A stretch of DNA of 52,847 nt from a virus: the IMG/VR virus record IMGVR_UViG_3300042876_000259, positions 1 through 52,847 of that record; one strand, written 5' to 3'. The notes beneath the pieces are model-generated. The model searched no databases and was not told where the DNA came from. It saw nothing but the letters and a program-made list of their open reading frames with translations. The translations under genes and the position numbers were made by a program. The number at the start of each line of letters is the position of its first letter. Within the stretch, counting starts at the first letter, position 1. Positions 6,896 to 51,385 of this stretch are shown here, piece after piece.

Positions 6896-8458
6896 TTAGT
6901 TGAGCAGTACAGCGAGACTCGTGTCGAATGCAACCTCGGTGTCGATGATGCCGCCCTCGCCCGAGAAGATGACGGACAGGTTGCAGTTGAAGCCGAGGCC
7001 GTCCGGGCGGACAGTTACCGCACCGGCTTCCTTGAGCTTGTTGATCGTGAAAGCCGCGTTGTGGATCCAAGCCTTGCGCTCGAACGCGTAGGCCAGCGCC
7101 ACGCCGTCATCCTTCACGCTGTCGATGTCGCGGGCTTTCTCGCGGTCGGTGGAATCCGTGACCGCAGCCGTGTCCGCCACGATGCTGATCCCCTGCCATT
7201 TCTCCTGCTCGAAGTTCATGCGGATGTTGTACAGGAGATTCTGGATGATGGCGATGTTACGCATCGAGCGGTAACCGTTGGAGTTGACCGGCGCATCGTC
7301 CGGGCGGTAGAAGGTGACCAGTGCCTGCAGGTAGACGGTGCCGGCCTGTACGCGGGTCGGGCTTACGCCGGAACGCATGGCGAGGTCGCGGGTGTCGTAA
7401 TCGCTCGTCCAGCGGTCGGAACGATCACCGGGGTTGACGCCGGAAAGCGCGATGCCCAGGTAACTCTGCGCGGCGCGCTTCTGGTTGATACGCGCCGCCT
7501 GCCCCATCGCCAGCGCGGCGATCTCGGACGGGTGGCTGTACGACCCCGGGACTGACACCACGCCGTTGGCGCGGTCCAGCTTTCTGTTGTCGGAGATGGT
7601 GACCAGGGCGTTGAGGCCCGCGCTACCCGCTGCGGTATCGCCGGTCAAGGCCCGGAAGGGGCGGCTTACCGTTTCGGCATAGAGCCCGGTAGCCTCGTTG
7701 CCCTCACCCACGTACGCGCTGATCGCGTCCAGCGTGGAGACGTCAAGACCGTATCCGTGTACCATGTCGGTGAAGTACATCTCGTTCGCGTCATCCCCGA
7801 CCCCCAGCCCGTCGAGAGCTGCGGAGATGCCCGGGACGCCCGCGCCCGCGCTCATGGCGGTAACAGTTACCGCTACACCGGACGGAAGCACCTGGCCGGC
7901 GCCGAGGTTGAACGCCAGGGTGATCGCGTTGCCCCACGGCCCTGCGCTCTTGGCGGTCAGGTTTACCTGCCCGGTGATCACGCCGTCGACAAGCGCGGAG
8001 ACCGGTAGGGTCTTGTCCGCGTTGACCGCTGTTGCGGCAGCGGTTGCGATCTGGGCTGCCGTGGCGCCCGTTGCCAGGTTTACCCTGACGAGCTGGCCCG
8101 CGATGTAGAGATACGCGGTACCGGCCTTGACGTTGGCACTGGCGGTGAAGTCGAGGCTGCCCGCGGCCTTTACGGACCCGCCGGCCTCAGCCTGTGGGAG
8201 AGCGTAGACCGGAACACCCTGCGTGCCGGCAAACGCAAAGAGCGCCAGACGGTGCAGCATGGAGCCGAACCCGTAACGGTTCCCGGCGTCCTCGGGACTG
8301 AGGATCAGCTGGGTCTCGTTCGCCGCGATGCCTACCTTGGCCGAGTCATAAGTCCCCACCACAAGGAACTTGCGGGGAAGATTGGTTGCCTCGGACGTGA
8401 ACTGAACGTTCCGAACGGACGCCCCTACCGCCGGGGCGATAGACGTGGAATTGAGCAT
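6896..8458 (-). CDS. Contractile tail sheath protein, Mu gpL-like
   Basis: 520 residues, close to Mu gpL. The N terminus (SVRNVQFTSEATNLPRKFLV) and the C terminus (GEGGIIDTEVAFDTSLAVLL) are the strand-exchange arms of sheath subunits. The central part includes the sheath core RALTGDTAAGSAGLNALVTI, NGVVSVPGSYSHPSEIAALA and RSMRNIAIIQNLLYNIRMNF. It contracts to drive the tube through the envelope. Its presence fixes the phage as a myovirus. Confidence 0.92.
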   Translation of the reverse strand: MLNSTSIAPAVGASVRNVQFTSEATNLPRKFLVVGTYDSAKVGIAANETQLILSPEDAGNRYGFGSMLHRLALFAFAGTQGVPVYALPQAEAGGSVKAAGSLDFTASANVKAGTAYLYIAGQLVRVNLATGATAAQIATAAATAVNADKTLPVSALVDGVITGQVNLTAKSAGPWGNAITLAFNLGAGQVLPSGVAVTVTAMSAGAGVPGISAALDGLGVGDDANEMYFTDMVHGYGLDVSTLDAISAYVGEGNEATGLYAETVSRPFRALTGDTAAGSAGLNALVTISDNRKLDRANGVVSVPGSYSHPSEIAALAMGQAARINQKRAAQSYLGIALSGVNPGDRSDRWTSDYDTRDLAMRSGVSPTRVQAGTVYLQALVTFYRPDDAPVNSNGYRSMRNIAIIQNLLYNIRMNFEQEKWQGISIVADTAAVTDSTDREKARDIDSVKDDGVALAYAFERKAWIHNAAFTINKLKEAGAVTVRPDGLGFNCNLSVIFSGEGGIIDTEVAFDTSLAVLLN

Positions 8459-8534: not shown

Positions 8535-8966
8535 CTACGGGCGTGTAAAGTTGCTGGCGGTGAGCGATGCCGTCCCGCCAGAGGACGTCATGTAGACCCT
8601 CAAGTTGTGGGCGCCTTTCGGGACTATCACGCCGATGGTTTGTGACACGCTTGATCCCGCAACGCAGTTCAAAGTGTTGGTCGAGCTGTCAACATAGAGC
8701 CTGACATACCCCGCCACCCCGGCTGAAGCGTTACATGACGCATAAATCGTGATCGTGCCCGCGTTGGAGCATGTGGACTGGGTGCCTGTATCAGCGGAAG
8801 CGTAGTTCCCAGCAGATAAGCTACTTTGTCCGTTGATGGTGAACGTGCCGGATGGTATCGTGCCCGAGCACGCATCACCCATCACCTGCATCATCCGCAT
8901 AGCTGCTGGCCCCGCCAAAGATGGCGAGGCGGTGAGCAGGATTAGAAGGAGGATTAGCGCTCTCAT
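8535..8966 (-). CDS. Small protein with signal peptide downstream of the tailspike
   Basis: Start ATG 8966-8964 overlaps the tailspike stop (ATGA), giving 143 residues. A longer in-frame reading exists but runs into the spike gene. Residues 1-18 (MRALILLLILLTASPSLA) form a clear Sec signal peptide with an A-x-A-like cleavage site. The mature part is Ser/Thr/Gly-rich with three Cys (DACSGTIPSG, TQSTCSNAGT, YASCNASAGVAG, LNCVAG), suggesting a beta-sandwich. It may be a fibre accessory or adhesin component; its function is unknown. Confidence 0.75.
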   Translation of the reverse strand: MRALILLLILLTASPSLAGPAAMRMMQVMGDACSGTIPSGTFTINGQSSLSAGNYASADTGTQSTCSNAGTITIYASCNASAGVAGYVRLYVDSSTNTLNCVAGSSVSQTIGVIVPKGAHNLRVYMTSSGGTASLTASNFTRP

Positions 8967-11900
8967 CGCACGTCCACCATACCGTTGCAGGAGAGCGTCG
9001 TGCCATCGTCGGAGTAGCAGGACAGCACGTCGTACTTTGTGGCGCTTGCTGACCATGCGGGCGCGGTACCTGCGGGCCATTTGTACACGCTGGTAAACGT
9101 CGGCGCGGTCGTAGAGGATTGCGTCAGTTTCAGCGTAAACGACTGCCCCGCAGCAAGGTTGGTGACGCCTATCGCGCAGGCACCGGAGAGCGTGAGCGTC
9201 TGGATGCCACCAAGCGTCGGGTCGATGTTGATGCTGGTTGAGCAGGTGCCGTTCGCTTTGACGGTTTCGAGGAATGAGGTTGCCTTTGCCGCCCCCACCA
9301 CGTCGAGCTTCTGGCTGGGGGAGGTGGTGCCGATGCCGACATTGCCACCGTTGTCCACAAACAGCCGCTCGTAGTAAACCCCTCCCGTTTTGGTTCTAAA
9401 TATCAGCTTGCCGGTGTCGTTTGTTGCTGCGGTTATGTGGAGAGAATCGCGCCATGATGCCGTTGTATGGTTGGACCCGAACGCGGCCATGCTGCCCTTG
9501 AAGGTAGTGCCCTCAAAGAAGTCAAGCGCGGTAGCTACGGTGTTATCGGTAGACCTGAGCGCGACATCAAGCCCACCTTCCCCGGCCCCTTTCTTTATGT
9601 CGAGCAGATAGGAGGGGGCGGTGTTGTTGAGGCCAAGCCTGCTGTTTGCGGCATCCCATGTCAAAAGTGTCGCTGCACCGAAACTACCAGCGTTGTTGTA
9701 CTGCAACTGACCGGAAGCACCTGCAGGGTTTCCGCCACCACCGGATGGCGTAAAGCAGCCTTCTGCATTCCCGCTGGCATCCACCCCGGCAGCGGCTTGT
9801 CCCGTGGTGCAATTAGTGCCGTTTGCTGCAAGTGCGGATGCAGTAGGCACCGAACCACTTACGGCTAGAGTAAGGGTTTCGTTTGCCCCGGCGTTGTTCC
9901 TTGTTATGGATATGTTGGACCCTGCGGCTAGTTTGTCGTACAGATACCCGTTGGTCGTGTCCGCCGCAGTTACCTTGACTTTGGGGCGCGGCCACGCTTG
10001 CTGGTCTGTGGTTCCGTGCCAAAAGTTATCCTCGATGACGGCATTGCCGGTACCTTGGGACACGTTCAAGAACTGCATGGCGGGGAGAGTGGCGTTGTCT
10101 AACTGCCCGCTATTATCCCGTATCACGATGTTATTCAACGTAATAGGCGTGTCGGATTCAAGGCTTATCAGGTAGTTTTGGTCGTTGTTACCGAAACGGA
10201 AAAAGTTGTTATTGGTTATAAGTATCGGCTGGTCATGCGTACCGTTGTCAAGAACCCCGCCATGAAGACGGAGCGATGCCACCGTGCAATCACCAAACCA
10301 GTTGTTTAGGATCGTCAGTCGGGTCGAGGTAAAAGAGGCTCTACCCACATCAAGCCCATACCGAACGTTCACCGGGAGCGTGGACCGTCCCGCGTCGGCC
10401 CACAAATGGTTCCCCCTGAAATTGATGTTGCCCGTCCTTGCGCTTACCTGGGTGTCGAAGCCGTTAATACCGTTATCGAAAACGTTGTCATCGGTTGTTC
10501 CTAGATCTAGCCCGATACTGTCGGCAACCTTGTAAGTTTCAAGCAGGTTACTTTCAATTATTGCCTGATACCCAGTCTTGGGGTCCTGCAAACTGGTTTC
10601 CACCGCCTTCTTCACGCGGTAGACCTTGTTGTGCCTAAATACCAACTGGTTAGACTGAGCGTTTGTCCCGCTCCGCGTCATGTAGACATAGGTACTCGTC
10701 GTGGGCGAATAATCGTGAACCATGCCATCCGCGCTAGTGCCTTCAAACACTATGCGCTTGCATCCGGTGAAGGCGAATGCTTTGATTTCGCTAAAAGAAA
10801 TCAGCCCTTTGCCCGTGAAGGTAATGTCATCCTTGTAAGATGCGGTTACGCCCGTCCCGATAAGAAAGTGTTTTCCAGAAGGAAAAACAACCACCACCTC
10901 TTTATGAGTCGCGCCAAGGTTGGTATTGGCCGGGAAGACGTAGCGTTGCGTCGCATAGGTGTCGATTATTGACTGGACCGCAGCGCTATCGTCGGTTCCT
11001 AGCTTATACTCGGATGCCGTTACGGTTGTCCCGGCTGCGGCTGAAAGAGCCAAGGTAGTCGAGTTGACATAGGACACAGTACCCTGGTACATCTTTCCGC
11101 CAGCACCCGCACCGTAGATAAGTATTGTTTTCCCGGTGTCCGCTGAAGTGAAAGCCGCACTGGGAGAAGAGAAAGTAGTACTGGCCGTAGTCACAGTTCC
11201 GTCAAAAGCAGTTACGGTGTCTCCCTTTGCTCCATACTCCATCACGTTGAAATCGGACCTTTGCGCCTTGCTTGCCGCCAAATCATAAGTCGCCTTCACC
11301 GCCGCCGAGTTCGCCGCCGTGGTCGTGCTGGTGCTGTTAGTGGCGCTGCTTAACTCCGACTCCTTGATGATGGTGGCGTCGGCCGGTTCCTTAGCGGCCA
11401 ACGCAGCATCCAGCCCCGTGATCGCGCTCGTTGGGTGCGCGTCAGGCACAGTTCGGCCAACCAGCTGGTTGTGCTCCGTGTTGGCACCCCCCAGAGAGGT
11501 ATGGGAGAGCGCTAGGTAGTCAATAAAAACGTGATGCACGGTGGAACCCGCCGTTGAATGATAAAATCGAATTAGTACGGTGTTGGAACCGTTGCGATAT
11601 GCGGAGTCGACAGGAACCCCGAGCGTTACCCACGCATAGTCCGACGTGCCGTGCAACGCATTAACGTTAAGGCTGTCCCACGTCAACGTTCCGTAATTGT
11701 AAGCCTGGATGTAAACGTCGTGCGTTGCGGACCCGTCGTACCAGAAGCGCGCCGATACCTGGTTAAAATGCGGCACGGCGTTAAAGGTGAACCGAACGTC
11801 CCACCCCGGCGCCCCGGACGCCTCGTTAACCTGCAGCACTGCATTGTCATACGCGTTATGCGTCGACGCCGCTGTGCCTGACGCGATCGTACCTGTAGCA

Positions 11901-12832
11901 GCGGTCACGCTGGCTCCGGAGTAATTGGTGAACTGCAGATCCGCTTTTGTGGCAAAGGGGTTGTCCGCCGAGGGCGCTTGCGCGTAGGTCATCCCCGCCT
12001 TCTCGTTGGTGGTCGGGAAGCGCGCATCGGAGCTGGCTGCAAAGCCGGTATGCCCGCTACTTGCGTAATCCAGATGAGTCAGAGCTGCGTGGTCCGTAGT
12101 GCCGCCGGTGCCGCCCGCAGGAGTAAAGCAGCCCTCAGCATTGCCCGCGGCGTCCACACCTTTTGCGGCTTCCCCCTCGCCGCAATTGAAACCGTTAGCT
12201 GCAAGAGCCGCAGCGGTCCCCGTGGTGTTTTGGTTCAGCGTCGGGAAGCCGGTTAGACCGGACGCGCTGCCGGTGGGCGTGAGGTAGTCCACCCCCGCGG
12301 TGAGCGCCGCCTGCTTTGCATTCCAGGCCGCTTTCTCAGTGTCGGTGGCAAAGCGGTGGGCGGTATCCTCGGTGACAGTCGTGGCGGCCTGAGTGTGCGC
12401 GAGGGGCGCGCGGGCATCGGAGAGTCGCATGTCCGCGTTGGTGACAAAAGCGTTGCCTACCCCGGGCGCCCCGCTGGTGCCGACCATGGCACCCTTCTCG
12501 GCGGTGGTCGGGATATTCGCATGGTTGTAGGTCGAGGTGTGGACCGACACCGAGCCCGCTGGGTCCGCCCCGACTTCCGCAGCGGTCAGAACCACCGCGC
12601 CAGCCTTGCCCTGGACACTGGTTACGGCTACTGAGGCGGAAGAGATCTGGGACTGCACATACGACTTGATTTGCCCTACGGTGGCGGAATACGCGTTGGG
12701 GCTGCCATCGCGCGCTACAGGCACCTTATCGGTGCTGCGGAGAGGCGACGGCACTACCGGAACCGAGGTTATGGAGGCCGCACCAGCAACAGCCGCGACA
12801 AAGAGCAAACTCAACAGCAAGAACTTCCGCAT
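8963..12832 (-). CDS. Tailspike / long tail fibre with pectate-lyase-type beta-helix and N-terminal signal-like sequence
   Basis: 1289 residues. Residues 1-19 (MRKFLLLSLLFVAAVAGAA) look like a Sec signal peptide, unusual for a virion protein. Residues 35-60 (DKVPVARDG ... QIKSYV) are shared with the repetitive fibre at 48830-51385 and may be the attachment module. Next come collagen-like/phage fibre repeats (TAAEVGADPAGS, TDHAALTHLDY). Near the middle, FNVMEYGAKGDTVTAFDGTV starts a pectate-lyase-3-type beta-helix with repeating N/I ladders (ITNNNFFRFGNNDQNYLISL). A trimeric LGLNNTAPSYLLDIKKG / GNVGIGTTSPSQKLDVVGAA region and a beta-rich C-terminal domain follow. It is probably the receptor-binding depolymerase. 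Confidence 0.8.
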   Translation of the reverse strand: MRKFLLLSLLFVAAVAGAASITSVPVVPSPLRSTDKVPVARDGSPNAYSATVGQIKSYVQSQISSASVAVTSVQGKAGAVVLTAAEVGADPAGSVSVHTSTYNHANIPTTAEKGAMVGTSGAPGVGNAFVTNADMRLSDARAPLAHTQAATTVTEDTAHRFATDTEKAAWNAKQAALTAGVDYLTPTGSASGLTGFPTLNQNTTGTAAALAANGFNCGEGEAAKGVDAAGNAEGCFTPAGGTGGTTDHAALTHLDYASSGHTGFAASSDARFPTTNEKAGMTYAQAPSADNPFATKADLQFTNYSGASVTAATGTIASGTAASTHNAYDNAVLQVNEASGAPGWDVRFTFNAVPHFNQVSARFWYDGSATHDVYIQAYNYGTLTWDSLNVNALHGTSDYAWVTLGVPVDSAYRNGSNTVLIRFYHSTAGSTVHHVFIDYLALSHTSLGGANTEHNQLVGRTVPDAHPTSAITGLDAALAAKEPADATIIKESELSSATNSTSTTTAANSAAVKATYDLAASKAQRSDFNVMEYGAKGDTVTAFDGTVTTASTTFSSPSAAFTSADTGKTILIYGAGAGGKMYQGTVSYVNSTTLALSAAAGTTVTASEYKLGTDDSAAVQSIIDTYATQRYVFPANTNLGATHKEVVVVFPSGKHFLIGTGVTASYKDDITFTGKGLISFSEIKAFAFTGCKRIVFEGTSADGMVHDYSPTTSTYVYMTRSGTNAQSNQLVFRHNKVYRVKKAVETSLQDPKTGYQAIIESNLLETYKVADSIGLDLGTTDDNVFDNGINGFDTQVSARTGNINFRGNHLWADAGRSTLPVNVRYGLDVGRASFTSTRLTILNNWFGDCTVASLRLHGGVLDNGTHDQPILITNNNFFRFGNNDQNYLISLESDTPITLNNIVIRDNSGQLDNATLPAMQFLNVSQGTGNAVIEDNFWHGTTDQQAWPRPKVKVTAADTTNGYLYDKLAAGSNISITRNNAGANETLTLAVSGSVPTASALAANGTNCTTGQAAAGVDASGNAEGCFTPSGGGGNPAGASGQLQYNNAGSFGAATLLTWDAANSRLGLNNTAPSYLLDIKKGAGEGGLDVALRSTDNTVATALDFFEGTTFKGSMAAFGSNHTTASWRDSLHITAATNDTGKLIFRTKTGGVYYERLFVDNGGNVGIGTTSPSQKLDVVGAAKATSFLETVKANGTCSTSINIDPTLGGIQTLTLSGACAIGVTNLAAGQSFTLKLTQSSTTAPTFTSVYKWPAGTAPAWSASATKYDVLSCYSDDGTTLSCNGMVDVR

Positions 12833-12846
12833 ATAGTAGATCCTCC

Positions 12847-13530
12847 CTAACCCGGCTCCACAAAGTCGCCGTTTTCAAATTGTAAGAGTTCCCCGCCTGG
12901 CCAGGTGAAGGGCGTATCGGGGAATGCCGTGACAACCGTTGCGCCCGTATACAACCCGGACAGGTTGACGGTCACGCCGCCAACCGCTGCTACGCCCGCC
13001 TCGCCAAGCACGGCTTCCGAGGTCCGGCAGGTAAACAGGACCTCGCCCGTGAGTGTCACCAGCTCACCGCTGGGGAGCGGGCTGTCTTTCTGCAACGATC
13101 CGACCCACCGGTTCGCTACGATGCCCTTGGCCAACCCAAGGTCAACATTGCGGGCGTCCATAAGCACCTGGTAAACAATGTCAAACAGCTCGTCCATGAG
13201 CTCGTCCGCCACATACGCGGCGTCTTGCATAGCTTCCATGGCGATGGCTACCTGGGCGGCGGTAGAAGCGGGGGCGTTGATGACCGCGAGGTTGCACCGG
13301 GAAGGGGCGTTGACTGTGAGGCCGATCCCGAAAGTCATGTCGTGCTGGTTCGGCCCCCGCATGCTGCCGCTGGACTTGGAAAACTCGCCCTCTTTAAAAA
13401 AGGACTGCACCATCCGGCGAGACTCACCCGCGGCCTTAGCCTGGCGCTGGTACCCGACCATCTTGTACCGCCCCATGGCCGCGTTCCCGAGGAGGTCTAT
13501 TATCGCTTTATTTACGACCCTAAAATTCAC
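12847..13530 (-). CDS. Neck or tail-completion protein, unassigned
   Basis: 227 residues between the spike gene and the head-tail joining candidate at 13527-13928, which it overlaps by ATGA. The segment AAQVAIAMEAMQDAAYVADELMDELF is a strong helix. The N terminus is basic and the C terminus is beta-rich (GGVTVNLSGLYTGATVVTAF). In lambda- and Mu-like gene orders this position, after capsid genes and before the sheath, belongs to head completion or tail terminator proteins. I do not recognise the family, so the role is from position only. Confidence 0.55.
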   Translation of the reverse strand: MNFRVVNKAIIDLLGNAAMGRYKMVGYQRQAKAAGESRRMVQSFFKEGEFSKSSGSMRGPNQHDMTFGIGLTVNAPSRCNLAVINAPASTAAQVAIAMEAMQDAAYVADELMDELFDIVYQVLMDARNVDLGLAKGIVANRWVGSLQKDSPLPSGELVTLTGEVLFTCRTSEAVLGEAGVAAVGGVTVNLSGLYTGATVVTAFPDTPFTWPGGELLQFENGDFVEPG

Positions 13531-18052: not shown

Positions 18053-18712
18053 TTAGCGAGGCAGCGCGTAGCCGCTGGTGGCGGCATGGCCCCGCAGGGT
18101 TTCGTACTCATGGACGTCCCGCTGCACATTGTTTTTGACCCGGTACGCCCAGGTGTCCAGAAATGGCATCTTACGTGGGTTCGCGTCCACAATCTGAATG
18201 TACCTAGCGTGGGTCAACCCGATCAGGTGTACGTAGAGCTGTACCTGATCAATCTCGTTGAGCCGCTGGATGGTGCTCGGCCCAACCCGCCCGTCAACAG
18301 CGATCGGTGCGCGAGGCCAGCCGGTAAGGTTGATAGCGCGTTGGAGTATACGGGCCGAGGTTCCGGTCCCCATGTTCACAGCACAATCGAAGACCTGGTT
18401 GGCGATGATCTGGTTCCGTACCCGGTTAAGCCGCAGTGCATTCCAGAAATCGCGCTCATACAGGAACGCCGCACGGTCCAGCGTCAGCCCCTTGATGTCC
18501 TCGCGAGGGTAGCTTGCCGCTGCGATCCCGAATTTGGTCCCTTTGAGGGCCCCAACCCCAACCTTGCCGCCCGTCCAGTTGCCGGAGTCGCCCCTCATGG
18601 CCTGGTACCCGCCCTCATGGCCAAAGGTGTACTCAAGCGCGGGCTTGATGCTGGCCCCGTGAGCCGAAACCGCCAGGAGTACCGCCGCTATGACCGCAAG
18701 CAACCTACCCAT
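18053..18712 (-). CDS. GH108-type lysozyme (endolysin) with N-terminal signal/SAR-like segment
   Basis: 219 residues. Residues 5-19 are hydrophobic (LAVIAAVLLAVSAHG), consistent with a Sec signal or signal-arrest-release segment. HEGGY at 32-36 carries the catalytic Glu33 of GH108 muramidases (the phage N4 gp61 type). The C-terminal part (APIAVDGRVGPSTIQRLNEI) is the associated peptidoglycan-binding module. It would cleave peptidoglycan after export. It overlaps the portal stop by 8 bases and lies far from the holin-like cassette at 46-47 kb. Confidence 0.87.
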   Translation of the reverse strand: MGRLLAVIAAVLLAVSAHGASIKPALEYTFGHEGGYQAMRGDSGNWTGGKVGVGALKGTKFGIAAASYPREDIKGLTLDRAAFLYERDFWNALRLNRVRNQIIANQVFDCAVNMGTGTSARILQRAINLTGWPRAPIAVDGRVGPSTIQRLNEIDQVQLYVHLIGLTHARYIQIVDANPRKMPFLDTWAYRVKNNVQRDVHEYETLRGHAATSGYALPR

Positions 18713-30806: not shown

Positions 30807-31712
30807 TTACTCATGGGGGACGCCCATGAAGTTGAGAACTTTGTCGATCCCAAAAGCGGGGAGCGCGTAATGCAAATTCGGGTGTGTGTGTTTCATGGTA
30901 ATGAATCGATTGGTGCCGGTCTTACGCATTTCTTCTTGAACCCCAAACATACACAACGAGCAGCCTGTGCAGTCGTAATGCTGATATATGGGCGAATGCG
31001 GGATCATTGATTTCATAGCCATGATGTCTTCATCGGTCCAAAATGAGAGCGGACGGGACTGGATCAGGCCCTCGAAAGAGTTACACCCATGCTGTATGTA
31101 ACTCAGCTTGCGCGGCCTACTATCGCCCGCCATGGTTCCAACAAAGGGTTTCAGCCCCGTTTTTTTCTCAAAGTCTTTAAGAGGTTTCTTTTTAAGGTAG
31201 TAACAACACTTTTCAGAAATTTTAAAAGGGGCGTCAAGAAGATAATGGTACTTAGCGGGGATGACCCCCGTACTTTGAAGACGGTTAGTATTGGGATTGA
31301 GGCCCCCGTGTAATCGTAATTCTTTTTGAACGGGGCTTTTAGTGTTCCGGTACCTGTCTATCGCCATACTTACGTCTTTGCTTACCACCGGGTACCCATA
31401 AACGTCGCATACAGATTTAAAGTTGTGCCTAGGACGTAGCCGTATTACGTTTTCTATGGTACGAACAAAGGCCCGAACCTCGGGGAACTCAAGACCCGTA
31501 TCTACAAATACGGCCGGTACTTGGGGGTAGAGCGCGCGTATAAAAAACAGCATAACGGTGCTATCTACCCCGCCGGAAAAAGCCGCGTAGACCTGGCCGT
31601 CCCAGAATTCATACCACTGACGGATACGGCGCAAGGTCATTTCTATCTTGACGTTGAGTGGTAGGCCTTGACGTTGGGCCAGAAAAATGCCCCGCAGTTG
31701 GTTTTCGTTCAT
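30807..31712 (-). CDS. PAPS-reductase / DndC-like PP-loop protein
   Basis: 301 residues from ATG 31712, which overlaps the upstream stop (ATGA); a longer reading exists but runs through the upstream gene. YAAFSGGVDSTVMLFFIRAL (about 42-61) is the PP-loop that binds ATP, and AVFVDTGLEFPEVRAFV is the next conserved block. Four Cys lie in the second half: CCYYLKKKPL and CTGCSLCMFG, a likely iron-sulfur site as in DndC. The family includes PAPS reductases and DndC of DNA phosphorothioation. In phage the substrate is unproven. No dndB, D, E or cysteine desulfurase gene is seen. Confidence 0.82.
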   Translation of the reverse strand: MNENQLRGIFLAQRQGLPLNVKIEMTLRRIRQWYEFWDGQVYAAFSGGVDSTVMLFFIRALYPQVPAVFVDTGLEFPEVRAFVRTIENVIRLRPRHNFKSVCDVYGYPVVSKDVSMAIDRYRNTKSPVQKELRLHGGLNPNTNRLQSTGVIPAKYHYLLDAPFKISEKCCYYLKKKPLKDFEKKTGLKPFVGTMAGDSRPRKLSYIQHGCNSFEGLIQSRPLSFWTDEDIMAMKSMIPHSPIYQHYDCTGCSLCMFGVQEEMRKTGTNRFITMKHTHPNLHYALPAFGIDKVLNFMGVPHE

Positions 31713-32050
31713 TTCCGGCCACCAAGCGTTACAGTTTTGTCGGGCATAACCAGCGAAACCCGTTGCTGACCGCATTCGGTCTTTAAAAGCGCGGCCAACG
31801 CAAAAAGCCGATCTTCTAGGTCGCTTGCCGACATCGGGAAACGGGGGTACTGGATCATCCCGACGATAGCGCCCGGTTCTTCCCCGTCGACATAGAAAAA
31901 CTCGGTAGCTGTTACCGTCACGCACAGCTTGTGAGCGTTCACGAAGTAACGGCAAACATCTTTGACTACAGAAATGGGCAGAACTTCGTCGGTGTACCCC
32001 ACGCGCAGCCCAACATAAATCTGTCCGGCCCAGGTCTTTACTGGTTTCAT
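31709..32050 (-). CDS. Hypothetical protein upstream of the PP-loop gene
   Basis: 113 residues from ATG 32050 (ATGA overlap with the upstream gene). Begins MKPVKTWAGQIYVGLRVGYT; contains FFYVDGEEPGAIVGMIQYPR and ends VSLVMPDKTVTLGGRK. Looks like a compact alpha/beta protein. Coupled to the PP-loop gene on one side and to the C-x2-C protein on the other, so a joint function is possible. Confidence 0.6.
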   Translation of the reverse strand: MKPVKTWAGQIYVGLRVGYTDEVLPISVVKDVCRYFVNAHKLCVTVTATEFFYVDGEEPGAIVGMIQYPRFPMSASDLEDRLFALAALLKTECGQQRVSLVMPDKTVTLGGRK

Positions 32051-32262
32051 ATCGCACCCCACTTAAAAGCTAGTTGCCTCTCACGTCTGCGCGGTTTCAG
32101 CTTTACGCTCGTGGTGAATGACTGACAGCGCGCCGCCTTTACTTCCATGAAAGCCAACCCGTCTTGAAAGGTTACCCGGCGCAACACTATCTTGAGCGCC
32201 ATCTCCATCGCCGGGTGGTAGTGGTCTACAAAGCTGCAATGGATGCAGGAGCGGGCGGTCAC
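32047..32262 (-). CDS. Small CxxC/His protein
   Basis: 71 residues from GTG 32262, overlapping the primase stop (GTGA). The N terminus MTARSCIHCSFVDHYHPAME combines C-x2-C with H residues, a possible metal site; the C terminus is basic (KLKPRRRERQLAFKWGAI). Function unknown. Confidence 0.55.
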   Translation of the reverse strand: MTARSCIHCSFVDHYHPAMEMALKIVLRRVTFQDGLAFMEVKAARCQSFTTSVKLKPRRRERQLAFKWGAI

Positions 32263-35559: not shown

Positions 35560-35819
35560 GCGGCACCTCCGAGCATCATTTCGGCGCCCATCTTGGCGGT
35601 AAGCATGCGGCCCTCAAGAAGCTGCAGGTCGGCGGGGGTGGACGGGGTGGCAACGTGCGCCATGAGGATCAGCCCGCAAGGCAGCGCGGCGGTAACCTTG
35701 ATGCTCTTGCCCTCGGAAACCCAAAGGTGAAGGGGCTTCTTGGTGTAGGACACGCCGACTGTTGTGCCCTCGAGCGCTTCGTCGTATTTCTGCCATCCGG
35801 CTTGTTCGTAAATGGTCAT
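35556..35819 (-). CDS. Hypothetical protein between helicase and nuclease
   Basis: 87 residues, overlapping both neighbours by 4 bases. Starts MTIYEQAGWQKYDEALEGTT; contains KKPLHLWVSEGKSIKVTAAL and a helical end. No family recognised. Confidence 0.55.
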   Translation of the reverse strand: MTIYEQAGWQKYDEALEGTTVGVSYTKKPLHLWVSEGKSIKVTAALPCGLILMAHVATPSTPADLQLLEGRMLTAKMGAEMMLGGAA

Positions 35820-38578
35820 TGCGCGGCTCCTCGTTGAATGTCTGCATAGATTCTCTGGGTCAGCGCCTCGGCCTCAGCGCGTTTAAGCGTCTGAGCGGTG
35901 AGTACGTCGATCCCAAACTTGTAGAAAAATTCCCTGTAGCTCTTGGCGTCGGGCTGCCCTGCCGCCCTTCTGAAACCCGCCCACCAAGCGATCTGATCGC
36001 GCAGCGCTGCCAGGCTGTTAAGCCTTTCAGCATGCAGGTTGGCGACGTGCTTAGCATTCATAAATGGCTGCCCAGCATTTTGAAGGCGTGACCGCACTGC
36101 GTCCGGGTGCTCGTTGGCGCGTTCGATCTCGTCGTACATCGCCCGCAGTACCTCACCGTCCAGTTCATAGGGATCACCGTCGATAAATTCCACGGCGCTA
36201 CGCTCTGCCGGGACCGGAACCCAACCGCAGTACGGACAGCAAGGCTCGGTGCGCTCATACGGCGCCATGCACTCAGGGTTAAGGCAGTTACGCCAGGGGA
36301 CGGTGCCATCGTCCTCGGTCTTGGCCTTACGTTCCCGGCGGTCCATCGACCATACACGCGGGCGGTCAGGCGGCCCCCCGTGGCGGATGACGTTACCCAC
36401 ATGGTCGATGATGATGGCTTTGAGCTTGCCCTCGAGCAACCGCAAGGCCCTGCCGAACTGCTGTGCGTAGAGCGCGTACGACTGCGTGGCTCGGGCCATG
36501 CTGACCACCTCGATCGCGGGGAGGTCAAACCCCTCGCCAAACAGGTCCACGTTGACGAGTTGCAGGATCTCACGACGGCGGAACCGACGCAGGACATCGC
36601 GCCGTACGTTGCTTGGAGTCTTGGCGCTCAACACTTCCGCCGGTACGCCCGCTTGCTGGAACCTTACCGCCAGCTCGCTCGCTGTCTCGACGTCAGGGGC
36701 GAAGGTTACCCCCAGCTTGCCGCGCGCAAACCGCAGGTAGCCGTCGATGACGTCGCCCATAACAGACGAGTCACGGGTCTGCGTGGCGAGCTGCTTACGG
36801 ATGTAGTCCCCGTCTGCGCCGGTTGCTACTGAATCAATTTTGAAGTCTTTGGATTGATAGACGATAACGCGGTAATCGGTGAGGTAGCGGGTTCTGTTGC
36901 CGTTCCAGTCGGGGAGTCCGTCGATGAGGTCACGCATGCTCGGCCCCGTGACCATCGTGTCAAACACTCCGTCATGGTGGCGGCCCAACCCGCGACCATC
37001 CGCACGCTCCGGGGTGGCAGTCACGCCCAGACCAACAGCGTTGGGGAACAACTGGATAGCCTTGCCCCATTTGTTGGCGTCCAACAGGTGATGCGCCTCG
37101 TCCTGGACCCACTTACGTACGCGAGGAGCCCAGCCCATCAGTTCATGGTAGTGCGGGCTATCGGGCCTTGCCCACGAGACAAGCGTATCTACCCCGGCGG
37201 CTGCGCATTGCGCATTCGGGTGGTAGTAGCTGCGCCCCAGTTCTTCCATTTCTGTTTGAACTATGTCACGGATCACATTCTGGGGGCCGATGACTCTGAA
37301 TCTCACCTCGTCCCTACTTAACGCAAGGGCCATCTGGCCTACCAATTCTTGACGGTGCGCAATAGCAACGCTGGCGCCCTCCGTATCTCGTAATTCATCG
37401 CTGAATATAACCGTGTTGTGGGTTACCGTGAAGTCACCAAGGAGAAACCGTCTATCGTTCCCCGCGAGCTCAAAGCCGTAGTAATCCCCCCGCCCAATCG
37501 GTTCTACCTTTATACCGACCATTAGCACATCTTTTTTCTGTTCGCGAGGACCGGCTTTACGCCTCGGTACTCTGCACGGGACCTGATCAAGATGTCCGCT
37601 AATGGAGACGCGGAAATAAGATCCCACGGCCCCGGTATTCGCGCAAGTCTTTTGGCATGGCGCAACATAGGATGCAAGTCCAAGAGATCTGGCAATAAAG
37701 GCGACGTCAAAGGCTAATGCCTCCTGCTTGAAAACCAGATCGTAGACACCGTTGTTGAAGAACCCATCCGTGTCAATAACGCCGGCGAGTAATTCTAAGC
37801 GTTCGCTACGGGGCGCGACCTTAAAGGCATGCGGGATGTGTTTGTTGAGGAGAAGATCAAGCCGCCTGAGTTCGTTAAAAACAGAATTACGATGATGCCC
37901 GCGCCCAAGTGACAGTTCGTCAGGCCCGGAGATACGATAAACTGCGATGCGCTCGGGGCTGGTGCTGACACGCATCACATGGCCGATGCTTTCCGCATAG
38001 CGCGACCATTCGCTTATAACCTCAGCGTCTACGTTGGCTATTTCGGGGGATCGACTTGAACCGTCACCGAGCCAGACGCCCAGGATGTAAGGCGTAAGGA
38101 TAGACTGGGCGGGGGGATAAGAGAAGTCCACGCCTGCCCGGTACCCTTTCGCAACGTGTTTAAACGTCTTGTTGGAGTCCAAGTACGCGCCTATCGTTAC
38201 GTCCGCGATATCCCCCGCATAAAACTTATCCCCTCCGCATTGCACCGAGTGCTTGCAGTTTGTGATGCGAAGCGAAAGGATATGGTCGGAATTCACGACG
38301 TAAGCATCGCCGCGGGTCGGCGTAACTCGGTACAGTTCATCTACGCCATGACAAATTGAAGTAACGAGCCGGGGCGTACTATCTGGGCCCATAAGAAAAT
38401 CGCCTATAACTATCTGTTCTACGGGCTTACAGTTCCCATCGAACAAAAGTATAGGTGTTCCTTTTCCTAAACACTTGCCGCTGCCCGTGGGACTGACTGC
38501 AAGGACGTTACGATGCCCCTGAGCCCATGCGGCGCGTATATCTTGTTTCAGCTGGTATTGGTATGGACGAAGATTCAT
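35816..38578 (-). CDS. SF2 DEAD/DEAH-type helicase interrupted by an intein
   Basis: 920 residues as translated; the spliced helicase would be 567. Exteins: RPYQYQLKQDIRAAWAQG, Walker A VSPTGSGK (28-35) continuing TVIFSDEL after the intein, motif II WVQDEAHHL, motif III LGVTATPER, the SF2 C-lobe GVTFAPDVETASELAVRFQQ, DVLRRFRRREILQLVNVDLF, GFDLPAIEVVSMARATQSYA (motif V/VI region) and QQFGRALR. A C4 zinc site (CLNPEC ... CCPYCG) lies near the end. Phage replication or recombination helicase. Splicing is required because the P-loop is split. Confidence 0.88.
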   Translation of the reverse strand: MNLRPYQYQLKQDIRAAWAQGHRNVLAVSPTGSGKCLGKGTPILLFDGNCKPVEQIVIGDFLMGPDSTPRLVTSICHGVDELYRVTPTRGDAYVVNSDHILSLRITNCKHSVQCGGDKFYAGDIADVTIGAYLDSNKTFKHVAKGYRAGVDFSYPPAQSILTPYILGVWLGDGSSRSPEIANVDAEVISEWSRYAESIGHVMRVSTSPERIAVYRISGPDELSLGRGHHRNSVFNELRRLDLLLNKHIPHAFKVAPRSERLELLAGVIDTDGFFNNGVYDLVFKQEALAFDVAFIARSLGLASYVAPCQKTCANTGAVGSYFRVSISGHLDQVPCRVPRRKAGPREQKKDVLMVGIKVEPIGRGDYYGFELAGNDRRFLLGDFTVTHNTVIFSDELRDTEGASVAIAHRQELVGQMALALSRDEVRFRVIGPQNVIRDIVQTEMEELGRSYYHPNAQCAAAGVDTLVSWARPDSPHYHELMGWAPRVRKWVQDEAHHLLDANKWGKAIQLFPNAVGLGVTATPERADGRGLGRHHDGVFDTMVTGPSMRDLIDGLPDWNGNRTRYLTDYRVIVYQSKDFKIDSVATGADGDYIRKQLATQTRDSSVMGDVIDGYLRFARGKLGVTFAPDVETASELAVRFQQAGVPAEVLSAKTPSNVRRDVLRRFRRREILQLVNVDLFGEGFDLPAIEVVSMARATQSYALYAQQFGRALRLLEGKLKAIIIDHVGNVIRHGGPPDRPRVWSMDRRERKAKTEDDGTVPWRNCLNPECMAPYERTEPCCPYCGWVPVPAERSAVEFIDGDPYELDGEVLRAMYDEIERANEHPDAVRSRLQNAGQPFMNAKHVANLHAERLNSLAALRDQIAWWAGFRRAAGQPDAKSYREFFYKFGIDVLTAQTLKRAEAEALTQRIYADIQRGAAQ
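37415..38473 (-). mobile_element. Intein with LAGLIDADG homing endonuclease, in the helicase P-loop
   Basis: 353 residues (36-388 of the precursor), from Cys36 directly after GSGK to Asn388 in VTHN, with Thr389 as the +1 residue. Splicing blocks are complete: block A CLGKGTPILLFDGN, block B NSDHILSL, and C-terminal FELAGNDRRFLLGDF and VTHN. Two LAGLIDADG motifs, PYILGVWLGDGSS (128-140 of the intein) and LLAGVIDTDGFF (228-239), identify a homing nuclease. Insertion between Lys and Thr of the P-loop is a favoured intein site. Confidence 0.93.
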
Positions 38579-46172: not shown

Positions 46173-46556
46173 CTATGGACTCACGGGTGAACCACTCTTA
46201 CTTTCCAGGGCGCTCGCCACGGCGCCTGCGATGTCCGCGATCTTCTGCTCCTTGGCCTTCTGGCCTTCCGACTCGATGGTTGCCTGCACCAGGTCAGCGA
46301 TCTGTACGCCGCCCACCGCCATGGTGGTCACATCGGTAACGGCTTTTGCCGCCGGCGCAGCGTCCTTAGCCGCGATGTTCCCGACCCCGCCAGCTACCAG
46401 GCCCCCCGCCAGCGCGATCGTCTCGCTGGTTACCGGTACCTTGCCCGTTGCCATGCCCGCCGCCAGCGCAGCGCCCCCGGCGAACTGCGCCAACCCCGCA
46501 ACCGTGGTTTTGGGGTGGGAAAAGCAGCCCTTGAGCCAACTCCAAGGTTTGTTCAT
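46173..46556 (-). CDS. Holin-like membrane protein
   Basis: 127 residues; ATG overlaps the lipase stop and is preceded by GAGGAGA. After MNKPWSWLKGCFSHPKTTVA two Gly/Ala-rich hydrophobic segments (AGLAQFAGGAALAAGMATG, ETIALAGGLVAGGVGNIAA) could be membrane helices, followed by a helical Ala/Glu-rich soluble part. Position in the lysis-like cassette suggests a holin or accessory lysis protein; this is not proved. Confidence 0.5.
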   Translation of the reverse strand: MNKPWSWLKGCFSHPKTTVAGLAQFAGGAALAAGMATGKVPVTSETIALAGGLVAGGVGNIAAKDAAPAAKAVTDVTTMAVGGVQIADLVQATIESEGQKAKEQKIADIAGAVASALESKSGSPVSP

Positions 46557-47116
46557 AATAGTCTCCTCAGCCTTTCAATGTACACCTCTATTGGGTGGTC
46601 CTTCACTGTAGCCAGCTGGTTGTCGCTGTCCTTGAGGACGAACGCCGCCGAGCTGTGCCGGAACATCACCCGCGGGATCATGGTGACCAGATCGTCATCG
46701 CAGGCGTAACGGTAATGCGGCACCGAGCGCGGGACGCTGAGGTAGAAGTCGGGGCGCGGGCAACCAAAGGTGTGAAGCGGGACGTTGAGCGCACGGGCTA
46801 TGTCAAGCGCCACGGCCGCGCCAAAACTGTGGCCACTCGCCCAACGTATCTCCGCTTTCTCCGTAGGCGTCAAGGCTTCCCAAACCACCCGCGCTCCGCT
46901 GGCAAACCCAAAAGGCATCAAGCTGCCGGTCAGTGAGCGCCAGGGCACCGCGGCAAGATCGCGGAATACGTTACGAGCGTTGGCGGTCCCCCGGATGACA
47001 AGCGTTTGGTCGATCACACCGTACCGTAGATCCTCGACGGTCTTAAACCGCACGTCCTGGGGGTCATACGACGCCGCGCACAGTTCGGCCATGCGGAGAG
47101 CCCGTTCGGTTATCAT
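46553..47116 (-). CDS. Class-3 lipase-like serine hydrolase
   Basis: 187 residues from ATG 47116 (ATGA overlap with the lipoprotein gene); an ATG five codons earlier would overlap that gene. The sequence follows the lipase-3 pattern: TLVIRGTANARNVFRDL, nucleophile Ser97 in SGHSFGAAVALDIA (GxSxG), TFGCPRPDF, Asp142 in DDDLVTMIP and His174 in VKDHPIEVYIERL. The complete triad order Ser-Asp-His suggests activity on lipid or ester substrates. No signal peptide is visible, so it would act in the cytoplasm, after lysis-driven release, or by another export route. Confidence 0.85.
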   Translation of the reverse strand: MITERALRMAELCAASYDPQDVRFKTVEDLRYGVIDQTLVIRGTANARNVFRDLAAVPWRSLTGSLMPFGFASGARVVWEALTPTEKAEIRWASGHSFGAAVALDIARALNVPLHTFGCPRPDFYLSVPRSVPHYRYACDDDLVTMIPRVMFRHSSAAFVLKDSDNQLATVKDHPIEVYIERLRRLL

Positions 47117-47289
47117 TTCCGCAGCCTCCACGTCGCTTCGCCGGCTACGGTGTTGATGCGGGATGGCGTCTCGCCTATCTCATGACGTACCGCGGTACCC
47201 GCTTTGATGGTGACCGTTTCGGGAACTGCCGGGTGGTTGCTGGCGCACCCGGGGGCGAGTACCAGAGCGGCTAGCAGATAGCGCCTCAT
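47113..47289 (-). CDS. Small lipoprotein, o-spanin-like candidate
   Basis: 58 residues from ATG 47289 (overlapping the holin-like stop). MRRYLLAALVLAPGCASNHP has a lipobox LAPGC, so Cys15 should be lipidated. The mature part is short and beta-prone (VTIKAGTAVRHEIGETPSRI). In lysis cassettes such proteins are often outer-membrane spanins (Rz1 type), but the Pro-rich composition of Rz1 is weak here and no i-spanin partner is identified. Confidence 0.6.
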   Translation of the reverse strand: MRRYLLAALVLAPGCASNHPAVPETVTIKAGTAVRHEIGETPSRINTVAGEATWRLRK

Positions 47290-47537: not shown

Positions 47538-48287
47538 TTAAACGCCAGCGTAGATGCAGACAAGCATTGCGATGTTCGCCGGGTGCGTTTCTACATCGTC
47601 CATCTGGAAGCGGATGCTGACATCGTTGCCATCAGTGGACCGCCCCGTATCTTTCGGTGTCGACCAGCTACCGTCCTCGGGGATCGTAGCCGAGCCCACG
47701 GTGTGGGTGCTGTCTGCTGCAGTCTCAAAGCGGTTGATGTGTTTGCTCTGATCCTCTTGGATGCTACCAAACGTGCGGCCGGGGTCCACGCCGGCGCCGT
47801 TATCCCACGAGCGGATGAAGTAGCCTCGCGGCGGTAAGTCGAAAGTGGTGGTGCCATTGCCTGGTCCCCAGGTGGTACCTATCTTGGCGAACAGGGCGGC
47901 GTAGGTGGTACGGCTGACGGCCTGGCCGAGTTCGAGCCATTTGGGTGGTACGGCCTGGAAAGCAAACTCGCGGACCTCCCCTATGATGAGCGCCTCGCCG
48001 GGCTGCAGAGCCGTGTCCGCCAATGCGCCCTGCGCGGCGCTGGCAAAGAGCGCCTGCATGGCGGTGAGGTAATCGCTGGCGACCGCGGTGTCGGGATTGC
48101 CGGACGGCACGATGCCTGCGCCGTGGAGGAGTGCTTGGAGGAAACCGTAGATATCGTTGGGCCACGCCTTCTCGAGCGGGGTGCCGTTACGACTGGTGGG
48201 GGTATCGGAGTTTTTAAAGCTGCCCTGGGGATATGCTGCGTCGGGCGGGTTTGCGTTGGTGTATTCCGTCGAAATGACGAGCGCCAT
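47538..48287 (-). CDS. Tail fibre with phage collar domain
   Basis: 249 residues from ATG 48287, chosen for AAGGAGAGA upstream; a longer in-frame reading reaches 48359. N-terminal part AYPQGSFKNSDTPTSRNGTP then LEKAWPNDIYGFLQALL is a fibre-attachment type seen in Mu-like tails. Residues 100-190 (REFAFQAVPPKWLELGQAVS, FAKIGTTWGPGNGTTTFDLP) form the collar domain, followed by a C-terminal region that binds receptor. No signal peptide, in contrast to the other two fibres. Confidence 0.8.
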   Translation of the reverse strand: MALVISTEYTNANPPDAAYPQGSFKNSDTPTSRNGTPLEKAWPNDIYGFLQALLHGAGIVPSGNPDTAVASDYLTAMQALFASAAQGALADTALQPGEALIIGEVREFAFQAVPPKWLELGQAVSRTTYAALFAKIGTTWGPGNGTTTFDLPPRGYFIRSWDNGAGVDPGRTFGSIQEDQSKHINRFETAADSTHTVGSATIPEDGSWSTPKDTGRSTDGNDVSIRFQMDDVETHPANIAMLVCIYAGV

Positions 48288-48352
48288 GCTGGTCTCTCCT
48301 TTTTCGGTTGGGTCTTTATGCCATACTTGGTGGAAAATTAAAAGTGAAACAT

Positions 48353-48380
48353 TTGACAAAAAGCATCTTACTGGTACACT
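48353..48380 (+). promoter_or_regulatory. Stand-alone promoter of the plus-strand insertion gene
   Basis: TTGACA (48353-48358), 16-base spacer, TACACT (48375-48380), perfect -35. It drives only the gene at 48413, against the direction of the surrounding late operon. AGGAG lies at 48400-48404. Confidence 0.75.
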
Positions 48381-48412
48381 TGTGGCTCATTTTAATTTTA
48401 GGAGCCTATTTT

Positions 48413-48829: not shown

Positions 48830-51385
48830 CTACTTTTTCATCTCAATCAGCGCGAGGGTACGGTACTGTACCGTCATGTTGGTGCCCTTAAGCGCGTAAG
48901 TGTGGGTACCCGCCGGCGGGGTGTCGATAATGGCCATGCTGACAAACCCGGGGTGCGTACCGTCCTGTGTGTTAGGGCCCAGCAACGTGGTGGTGACTCC
49001 CGATGTGGTGCGGGTGAGCCTCAGCTGGCCCGAGCTCCCACCTAGCTGTTGAAACCCCGCAGTGATAAGGATCGGCTTACCGGTCGATGTTATTGAAGCC
49101 GTTTGGATATCCGCCTCGGTGGTGATACTCACGAACGACGGGGTGTATGCGGACGCCGTGGTGGTCACGGCGTTGTCTTGAATGTTGCCTGCCGCTACGA
49201 TATCCCCCGTCAGACTGAGGTTTGCACCGTCCCACTTTAAACTCCTGGTCGAGTCCCCGATGTTGAATTTGGGGGTGCCGCTGTCCAGGCCGAGGTAGTA
49301 ACCGCTCGTCGTGCTCGAATACGCGGTCTTTCCCGAGTACACGCCTGACGCTGATACCGTGCCCGCGGCTATCTTGTCCCCCGTAATCGTACCAGCCGCG
49401 ATTTCCGTAGCCGTTACCGCGCCCGCCGCGATCTTCCCGGCAGTGACGGCCCCCGCGGCTATGGTGTCAGCCTGGACCGCACCGGCCGAGATCTTAGCAG
49501 CCGTAACCGCCCCCGCAGCTATGGTCGCACTCGTCACCGCGTCCGCAGCTATGTCACCGGCCACTACGGACCCGGCGGCGAGCTGCGCGGCCCCCACTGA
49601 GTTGGCGGCGAGCTGCGCGGCGGTGATGGTGCTGGCGGCTATGTCACCCGCCACGATGGCCCCTGCGGCTATCTTGCCAGCCGTGACTGCCCCCGCAGCC
49701 AGGTTAGCCCCGGTGATGGTGGTGCCCGCGATCTTATCACCCGTGATCGTCCCGGCAGCGATGTCGGTGGCCTGGATAGCCCCGGCCGCAATCTTGCCCG
49801 CCACCACGGAGCCTGTTGCGAGCTCCGAGCTCGTGATGGCCCCCGCCGCTATCTGCCCCGCGGTGATGGTGTCGGTAACTAGGTTGGAACCCGTGATAGT
49901 CCCCGCCGCGATCTTGGCGCCGGTGATGGTGCTGGCGGCTATGTCGCCCGCCACAATGGTACTGGCTGCGATCTTCCCGGCCACTACCGCCCCAGTCGCT
50001 AGTTCCGAGCTGGTGATGGCTCCTGCGGCGATATTACCGGCGGTGATGGTGTCGGTGGCGATGTTACCGGCAGTGACCGTCCCGGCAGCGATGTTGGCGC
50101 CAGTTATGGTCCCCGCCGCGATATCTCCCGCGACGATAGTACCGGCGGCTATCTTGCCCGCCACCACCGCGCCCGTTGCGAGCTCGGAACTCGTAATGGC
50201 CCCCGCAGCGATGTTGGCGGCCGTAATGGTGTCAGATGCGATGTCGCCCGCGGTGATGGTGCCGGCGGTAATCTTCCCGGCGGTCACGGCTCCCGCAGCG
50301 AGTTCAGAGCTGGTGACGGCGTTGGCGGCGATATTGTCAGCCGTGATGGTGTCCGCCGCTATTTTGGCACCCGTGATGGACGCAGCGGCCAGTTTGCTGG
50401 TGGTTACCGCCAGGTCGGTGATCTGAGTGCTGGTGATGGACCCGGTGATCTTAGCGGCAGAGATGGCCGCGAGCTGGGTGTCGGAGAGCGTGCCGGTCAC
50501 CTTGGCTGCTGCGACGGCTGCGATTTGGGCGTCCGTTAGGGTGCCCGTCACCTTGCTGGCCGCCATGCCTGCTATTTTGGCATCCGTTACAGCTGAGTTG
50601 GCGATCTGGGCGGTGGCCAGCTGGCCCGTAATCTTCGCTGCGGCTACCGCGGCAATTTGAGCGTCCGTCAGGGTACCCGTCACCTTGGCAGCTGCGACGG
50701 CTGCGATCTGCGCGTCGGTGAGCGTACCGGTGATCTTAGCGGCAGAGATGGCCGCTAGCTGAGTATCGGAAAGCGTACCGGTCACCTTGCTGGCTGCCAT
50801 GCCGGCTACCTTGGCATCGGTGACAGCCCCGTCTGCAATCTGCGTGGTGGCAAGCTGCCCGGTTACCTTGGCGGCTGAGATGTCCGCAAGCTGTGCGTCA
50901 GTGAGCTGCCCGGATACCTTAGCCGCGGAGATAGCCTCAAGCTTGGCGTCGGAGAGTTGGCCGGTGATCTTACTCGCCGCCACCCCTGCGATCTGGGCGT
51001 CCAGCACGGTGCCGGTAATGTCGGCCGCAGCCACCGTGGCGTCCCACGCGGAGCCCGACCATTTGTACAGCTTTGAGTCGGTGGTCAGGTAGACCGTGCG
51101 CCCCGCGAAGTTACCGGACGTCGGCAGCGTGCCCATGATCTCGATGGCGGTCACGCCTGCGGCAAGGTTGCTGTTGTTGATCAGGAGTCCGGTAGGGTCA
51201 CTCAGTACATAGCTCCTGATCTGCGACATGCTGCCGGTGTATGCGACGTTACTGCCGGGCCGCGAGATAGGCACCTTGTCGTTACCCAGGAGCGACCCGG
51301 AAACCTGCGGTGTCGACGCGATGGTGCCGGCACCCGCAGCGGTTGCCAGAGCCAGTAAAAGGTACAGCCAAAACCATCTTCTCAC
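48830..51385 (-). CDS. Repetitive tail fibre with signal-like N terminus and AGxI repeat shaft
   Basis: 851 residues. Residues 1-18 (MRRWFWLYLLLALATAAG) are signal-peptide-like. Residues 36-60 (DKVPISRPG ... QIRSYV) match the tailspike at 8963. From about 110 to 640 the shaft is made of short degenerate repeats such as SELATGAVVAGKIAAGTIVA and ADITGTVLDAQIAGVAASKI, period about 13-15 residues with Ile/Val in fixed positions, suggesting a triple beta-helix or stacked beta structure. The C terminus is a globular beta domain (SITSTGKPILITAGFQQLGG, GPNTQDGTHPGFVSMA). Probably the long tail fibre. Confidence 0.8.
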   Translation of the reverse strand: MRRWFWLYLLLALATAAGAGTIASTPQVSGSLLGNDKVPISRPGSNVAYTGSMSQIRSYVLSDPTGLLINNSNLAAGVTAIEIMGTLPTSGNFAGRTVYLTTDSKLYKWSGSAWDATVAAADITGTVLDAQIAGVAASKITGQLSDAKLEAISAAKVSGQLTDAQLADISAAKVTGQLATTQIADGAVTDAKVAGMAASKVTGTLSDTQLAAISAAKITGTLTDAQIAAVAAAKVTGTLTDAQIAAVAAAKITGQLATAQIANSAVTDAKIAGMAASKVTGTLTDAQIAAVAAAKVTGTLSDTQLAAISAAKITGSITSTQITDLAVTTSKLAAASITGAKIAADTITADNIAANAVTSSELAAGAVTAGKITAGTITAGDIASDTITAANIAAGAITSSELATGAVVAGKIAAGTIVAGDIAAGTITGANIAAGTVTAGNIATDTITAGNIAAGAITSSELATGAVVAGKIAASTIVAGDIAASTITGAKIAAGTITGSNLVTDTITAGQIAAGAITSSELATGSVVAGKIAAGAIQATDIAAGTITGDKIAGTTITGANLAAGAVTAGKIAAGAIVAGDIAASTITAAQLAANSVGAAQLAAGSVVAGDIAADAVTSATIAAGAVTAAKISAGAVQADTIAAGAVTAGKIAAGAVTATEIAAGTITGDKIAAGTVSASGVYSGKTAYSSTTSGYYLGLDSGTPKFNIGDSTRSLKWDGANLSLTGDIVAAGNIQDNAVTTTASAYTPSFVSITTEADIQTASITSTGKPILITAGFQQLGGSSGQLRLTRTTSGVTTTLLGPNTQDGTHPGFVSMAIIDTPPAGTHTYALKGTNMTVQYRTLALIEMKK

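Follow-up and report, generated by a model that had tools for sequence, protein, structure and literature searches.

The window analysed here, a 52,847-base IMG/VR record, belongs to a contractile-tailed phage with identifiable genes for the sheath, a baseplate wedge/gpI-type protein, tape measure, portal, protease and terminase. The window and a second contig, IMGVR_UViG_3300044673_000053, have identical sequence across most of the tail region, and the contig bridges both ends of the window, indicating that the window map is circularly permuted. The scan of the large window ORFs turned up no integrase, and lysogenic conversion is therefore unlikely here. Four further genes, all on the minus strand, may be recorded in passing. 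A helicase gene (35816-38578) is interrupted by an apparent intein running from CLGKGTPILLFDG to FTVTHNT, with the main helicase match beginning past it at residue 370, and 30807-32057 encodes a homologue of phosphoadenosine phosphosulfate reductase. A GH108 muramidase with a peptidoglycan-binding domain (18053-18712) lies between the portal and head protease genes, apart from the other lysis-region genes, and a lipase/esterase-like gene (46553-47131; phrog_21992, weak Lipase_3 match) adjoins the lysis-region genes.

Signal-bearing genes in the window

The complete tailspike gene (8963..12832, minus strand) encodes a protein of 1289 amino acids with 10 Cys residues. It lies between a conserved upstream gene (12847..13530, minus strand), assigned by position to head-tail joining or tail completion and having no family match, and the conserved tail sheath gene downstream (6896..8458, minus strand). 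The tailspike N-terminus, MRKFLLLSLLFVAAVAGAASITS, opens with a Sec-type signal peptide at residues 1-18 (12779..12832, minus strand), with cleavage predicted between MRKFLLLSLLFVAAVAGA and the following AS. A basic n-region (RK) precedes an uncharged h-region, whose mean Kyte-Doolittle value is 2.6 across 15 residues, and a c-region that reads AGA up to the predicted cut and A after it. The initial annotation had described residues 1-19 as Sec-like, with a basic start, a hydrophobic core and an AGAA end; this description was borne out at these positions, and the N-terminus passes a signal rule built from n-, h- and c-region criteria. We also looked for a downstream start that would remove the hydrophobic segment and found no credible one. 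The ATG at 12832, directly past the stop of the preceding gene, has a strong Shine-Dalgarno sequence, AGGGAGGA (12841..12848, minus strand), 8 nt 5' of it, and none was found at GTG codons 27, 37 and 59, the in-frame starts that come next.

Immediately after the signal, residues 19-62 (12647..12778, minus strand) form a module, originally noted as shared with another fibre, that sequence comparison confirms is common to the fibre encoded at 48830-51385. Further along are two copies of a Cys-pair module carrying the LAANGxNC motif, one with Cys217 and Cys235 (12110..12226, minus strand) and one with Cys1008 and Cys1026 (9737..9853, minus strand); the full pattern is LAANGxNC..GVDAxGNAEGCF (LAANGxNC-x17-C). 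The tailspike-type body (9923..11248, minus strand) matches the pectin-lyase family phrog_32881 at its start (residues 529-629, E 3.6e-14) and is expected from this family to be a beta-helix; alignment-free structure prediction of residues 520-990 gave a pLDDT of 31, too poor to use. A distal fibre module, GNVGIGTTSPSQKLDVVG (residues 1137-1207; 9212..9424, minus strand), is similar to the solved tips of Bdellovibrio MAT fibres. Tail-fibre and pectin-lyase domain matches comprise PHROGs 32881, 381 and 9017 and Pfam Phage_fiber_2. Homology of the post-signal module to the signal-less N-terminal modules of three other fibres (L123, L143 and L047) was plausible by eye and was rejected on an HMM test (E 17).

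Two further genes carry predicted signals. The second fibre (48830..51385, minus strand; 851 amino acids, zero Cys) occupies the tail-fibre slot after gpI, where its GTG start overlaps the gpI stop; its N-terminus is MRRWFWLYLLLALATAAGAGTIAS, and its signal peptide, MRRWFWLYLLLALATAAGA followed by G, spans 51329..51385 (minus strand). A gene for a 143-residue protein (8535..8966, minus strand), with the N-terminus MRALILLLILLTASPSLAG, the signal peptide MRALILLLILLTASPSLA and 4 Cys residues, overlaps the tailspike stop with its start (ATGA). The start codons of the signal-bearing genes in the window are correctly assigned, and in all three proteins the n- and h-regions and the small residues at -3 and -1 are those of Sec substrates of signal peptidase I. 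None of the three has a lipobox Cys at +1 or near the site, so that a type II lipoprotein signal is not indicated. A Collar-domain fibre without a signal (47538..48287, minus strand) is of the kind that relatives keep directly 3' of gpI. An opposite-strand gene between the two fibres (48308-48829, plus strand), without a family match, has the signal-like start MKCFIACVVLLALSAPVSA.

Signal peptides and Cys-pair modules in other phages

The rule recovers all 9 textbook signals tried, including OmpA, PhoA and DsbA. Shuffled N-termini reached the observed score in 0.5% of trials for the spike, 0.6% for the second fibre and 1.9% for the small gene, and internal Met-started segments passed in 4 of 260 cases. 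Applied to 79 late proteins from P2, lambda and Mu, the rule flags lysis proteins, Lom and Bor only, with no fibre or tail protein among them, and no export signal was found on any of the 17 control fibres identified through other spike modules. Convincing signals are likewise rare among fibres with the second fibre's repeats, occurring in three (L096, L128 and L143) of 70 intact examples, and we therefore rejected the proposal that signals are universal in this type of fibre; the other sequences that pass the rule have hydrophobic J-type N-termini or pass it only weakly. Six of the tail proteins with these repeats (L084, L109, L132, L146, L111 and L116) have a long hydrophobic Ala/Gly-rich stretch at or near the N-terminus that passes the simple rule and is not cleavable-looking.

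A scan of IMG/VR viral contigs for the Cys-pair module yielded 19 further loci. Two of these, L045 and L046, are duplicates, which leaves 18 distinct ORFs in whose alignment both Cys residues are invariant. Sixteen of these ORFs have a Sec signal by the rule, and the remaining two (L035 and L045) have one that is clear by eye. Set against 0/17 for fibres found via other spike modules, 16/18 gives a Fisher p of 4e-8, to be read as an order of magnitude only because some rows are related. The neighbours of the module ORFs are also enriched for signals: 27 of 90 same-strand genes within three positions are signal-positive vs 8 of 104 elsewhere, a clustering that points to cassettes of exported products. 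Where gene pairs can be compared, identity is lower in the signal than in the mature part (47% vs 68% for L041/L043; 37% vs 70% for L050/L075), and the signal codons of L030/L031 differ by 6 synonymous and 2 non-synonymous changes. Signals diverge more quickly than the mature proteins, yet keep their signal character.

The phage context of these genes is varied. The tail terminator and a minor tail gene of L028 flank four signal-bearing genes, near the slot equivalent to that in the window. In L035 they come after both the tape measure and a signal-less fibre gene, in L031 they follow the J protein, and the L029 contig contains a major head protein. Geobacteraceae assemblies contain two of the loci, L060 and L062, as prophages adjoining pnp/rpsO and pheT/pheS (pnp identified by Pfam, the others read by eye). 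The module is present in only 3 of 141 genomes of the order to which the Geobacteraceae belong, namely these two prophages and L058, a close relative of L060. The Cys-module proteins in Elusimicrobia and others are signal-bearing too, and are apparently cellular rather than phage. Among cultured phages, tblastn with the spike N-terminus, the Cys module and the signal-bearing fibres of other phages found no relevant relatives, and the module has zero matches in about 50,000 cultured-phage records. Fibres with predicted export signals thus appear to recur in the tail operons of many unrelated uncultured phages. The original observation on the spike is confirmed at the sequence level and extends further than the initial annotation had it, since the second fibre, the downstream gene and genes of these phages are also predicted to be signal-bearing.

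Cassettes and split fibres

Comparison with relatives indicates that both signal-bearing cassettes are insertions and would be accessory. In L020 and L021, whose sheaths are about 60% identical to that of the window, a single small gene, and no spike, separates the equivalent of 12847-13530 from the sheath downstream. Likewise, the gpI relatives L025 (43%) and L026 (33%) have a signal-less fibre directly 3' of gpI.

In at least three phages a fibre N-terminal domain without a signal has a gene of its own, which is immediately 5' of a signal-bearing gene and overlaps it by 4 bp (L060, 6970-7707; L044, 5082-5786; L029, 6192-6500). The L060 and L044 stubs, of 234-245 amino acids, match only the first ~130 residues of tail fibres and spikes of 650-1000 amino acids, and the L029 stub is a lone Mtd_N domain. 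This anatomy suggests that in some phages the apparent virion-anchoring head of the fibre is a separate signal-less protein while the rest bears an export signal. The window has no stand-alone stub, and instead has the 45-residue post-signal module common to both fibres.

Candidate roles of the signal-bearing fibres

The sequence itself shows recurring signals, Cys pairs and inserted cassettes, from which we infer export, cleavage, disulfide formation and an extracellular role. According to the model that we favour, the spike, the second fibre and the small gene product would be synthesized late, alongside the virion proteins, with genuine cleavable Sec signals that direct them across the inner membrane, where signal peptidase I would trim them. 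Folding would take place in the periplasm, with the Cys-pair modules oxidised to disulfides; the invariance of the Cys pair fits an oxidising compartment, while the lack of Cys in the second fibre counts against this scheme. Release would most likely occur at lysis, yielding free fibres, adhesive or polysaccharide-degrading, by which the surfaces near the progeny are cleared or coated, while the conserved signal-less Collar fibre would serve the virion. Export of the signal-bearing fibres, taken by itself, is highly probable. For the whole chain, in which late, Sec-exported and disulfide-bonded accessory fibres or depolymerases act outside the cytoplasm and the Collar fibre is left to the virion, we see about an even chance. 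The gene anatomy, with its insertions, signal-less Collar fibre and stubs beside signal-bearing bodies, leans towards accessory exported fibres. Of the three readings initially offered for the hydrophobic segment (a membrane anchor, cleavage with periplasmic assembly of the spike, and an exported decoy or enzyme), those involving export with cleavage draw good support from the sequence features, from recurrence in three genes and in unrelated phages, and from co-segregation with the Cys pair. The anchor is the least supported, the segment being short and Leu/Ala-rich, with an AxA end, no lipobox and no second anchor. Between a free enzyme or decoy and a periplasm-assembled virion spike the evidence does not separate.

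The latter, the main rival of the favoured model, would require fibres that cross the inner membrane, lose their signals and form trimers in the periplasm before docking on tails at lysis, via stubs or baseplate proteins. Its best support is positional: the second fibre occupies the post-gpI fibre slot, as does the signal-bearing fibre of L143, and this placement sits uneasily with a role off the virion. Fibres that dock on the virion of a single phage often have a common N-terminal module, and the two window fibres share one directly after their signals; moreover, the signal-less stubs of L060, L044 and L029 overlap signal-bearing genes, and P22 heads can receive tailspikes in vitro. Against this, relatives carry a complete signal-less fibre set, and we found no tailed phage with such assembly in the open-access literature. 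We regard docking at lysis as a tentative and rather unlikely account of these genes, and the general proposition that there are tailed phages whose fibres or spikes mature in the host periplasm and join the tail or a neighbouring stub only at lysis as improbable; were it true, it would be a more surprising outcome than free accessory fibres.

It is also conceivable that, once exported, the fibres remain attached to the cell, whether infected or lysogenic, and act there as adhesins or block superinfection, in the manner of MAT or Lom. The spike's distal module resembles MAT tips, which belong to fibres with just such a surface biology (PMC10769870), lambda lom is signal-bearing and directly follows J, the apparently cellular Elusimicrobia Cys-module proteins bear signals, and L096, with its signal-bearing fibre, is a prophage carrying an integrase. 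Display nevertheless seems quite unlikely here, given that the large ORFs scanned include no integrase, no outer-membrane anchor was seen, and the genes lie in a late tail operon. That the hydrophobic N-terminus is left uncleaved as a virion or membrane anchor has a precedent of sorts in the long hydrophobic N-termini of some J-type tail proteins. Those stretches, however, are longer, Ala/Gly-rich and without the single n-h-AxA layout, whereas the layout, length and AxA site of the window segments, the drift with kept properties and the like signal of the small gene all fit a signal peptide, making an anchor very improbable. A wrong start codon or an assembly error can hardly be credited in view of the strong Shine-Dalgarno sequence, the lack of an alternative start and recurrence in unrelated contigs. 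IMGVR_UViG_3300044673_000053 is, in addition, identical for the C-terminal part of the spike, the downstream gene and the N-terminus of the second fibre, the spike's own signal falling beyond the end of that contig.

Known tailspikes and textbook tailed-phage fibres are made, folded and assembled in the cytoplasm. The accessory fibres favoured here would combine known parts (Sec signals, chimeric fibres, MAT fibres and lambda Lom) in a new way, and in the open-access literature we found no description of tail fibres bearing signal peptides. Like lambda Lom, they are signal-bearing products encoded inside a tail operon; Lom, however, is annotated as an outer-membrane protein, whereas the window proteins have fibre and spike domains and do not match a Lom-type moron. 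Soluble depolymerases released at lysis are known, and the window spike resembles reviewed tailspikes and depolymerases in its pectin-lyase-type match and fibre repeats (PMC5380687), differing in its predicted export signal, which was not found on the control fibres. Host Sec export of a phage product with a cleavable signal is known for the secreted endolysin Lys44 of Oenococcus phage fOg44 (PMC6116005), although this is a lysin, not a fibre. Recurrent signal-bearing fibres with Cys pairs would represent either a second assembly route or phage-made extracellular adhesins or depolymerases, and in both cases receptor-binding proteins would have to be annotated and expressed differently, in the periplasm, under oxidising conditions and minus the first ~19 residues. 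A signal peptide plus a Cys-pair module provides a simple search rule for the trait.

The findings also connect phage fibres with fibre proteins that predatory and environmental bacteria export. The mosaic adhesive trimers (MATs) of Bdellovibrio bacteriovorus are chromosomal, phage-like chimeric fibres that bear signals and are located on the predator's surface (PMC10769870). The window spike shares with them the N-terminal signal and a distal segment, GNVGIGTTSPSQKLDV, that matches the solved tips PDB 8ojn, 8oml and 8ond (E 9e-5 to 5e-3). MATs differ in having a ~130-residue beta-rich domain after the signal (PMC10769870), whereas the window proteins have the 45-residue module and are phage genes in a tail operon. 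No S74 domain was found in the window proteins in the Pfam scan; the NS74 subgroup is possible. We make no claim that the window proteins are MATs. In apparently cellular relatives the signal is followed by an NYQGRL-type motif, which none of the viral loci tested contains; this motif is only a candidate for the MAT domain. In Elusimicrobia assemblies (L048-L051, L054, L067, L071, L075 and L076), a family of large signal-bearing proteins contains the Cys module and, following the signal, a conserved NYQGRLERDNAPITG-type domain.
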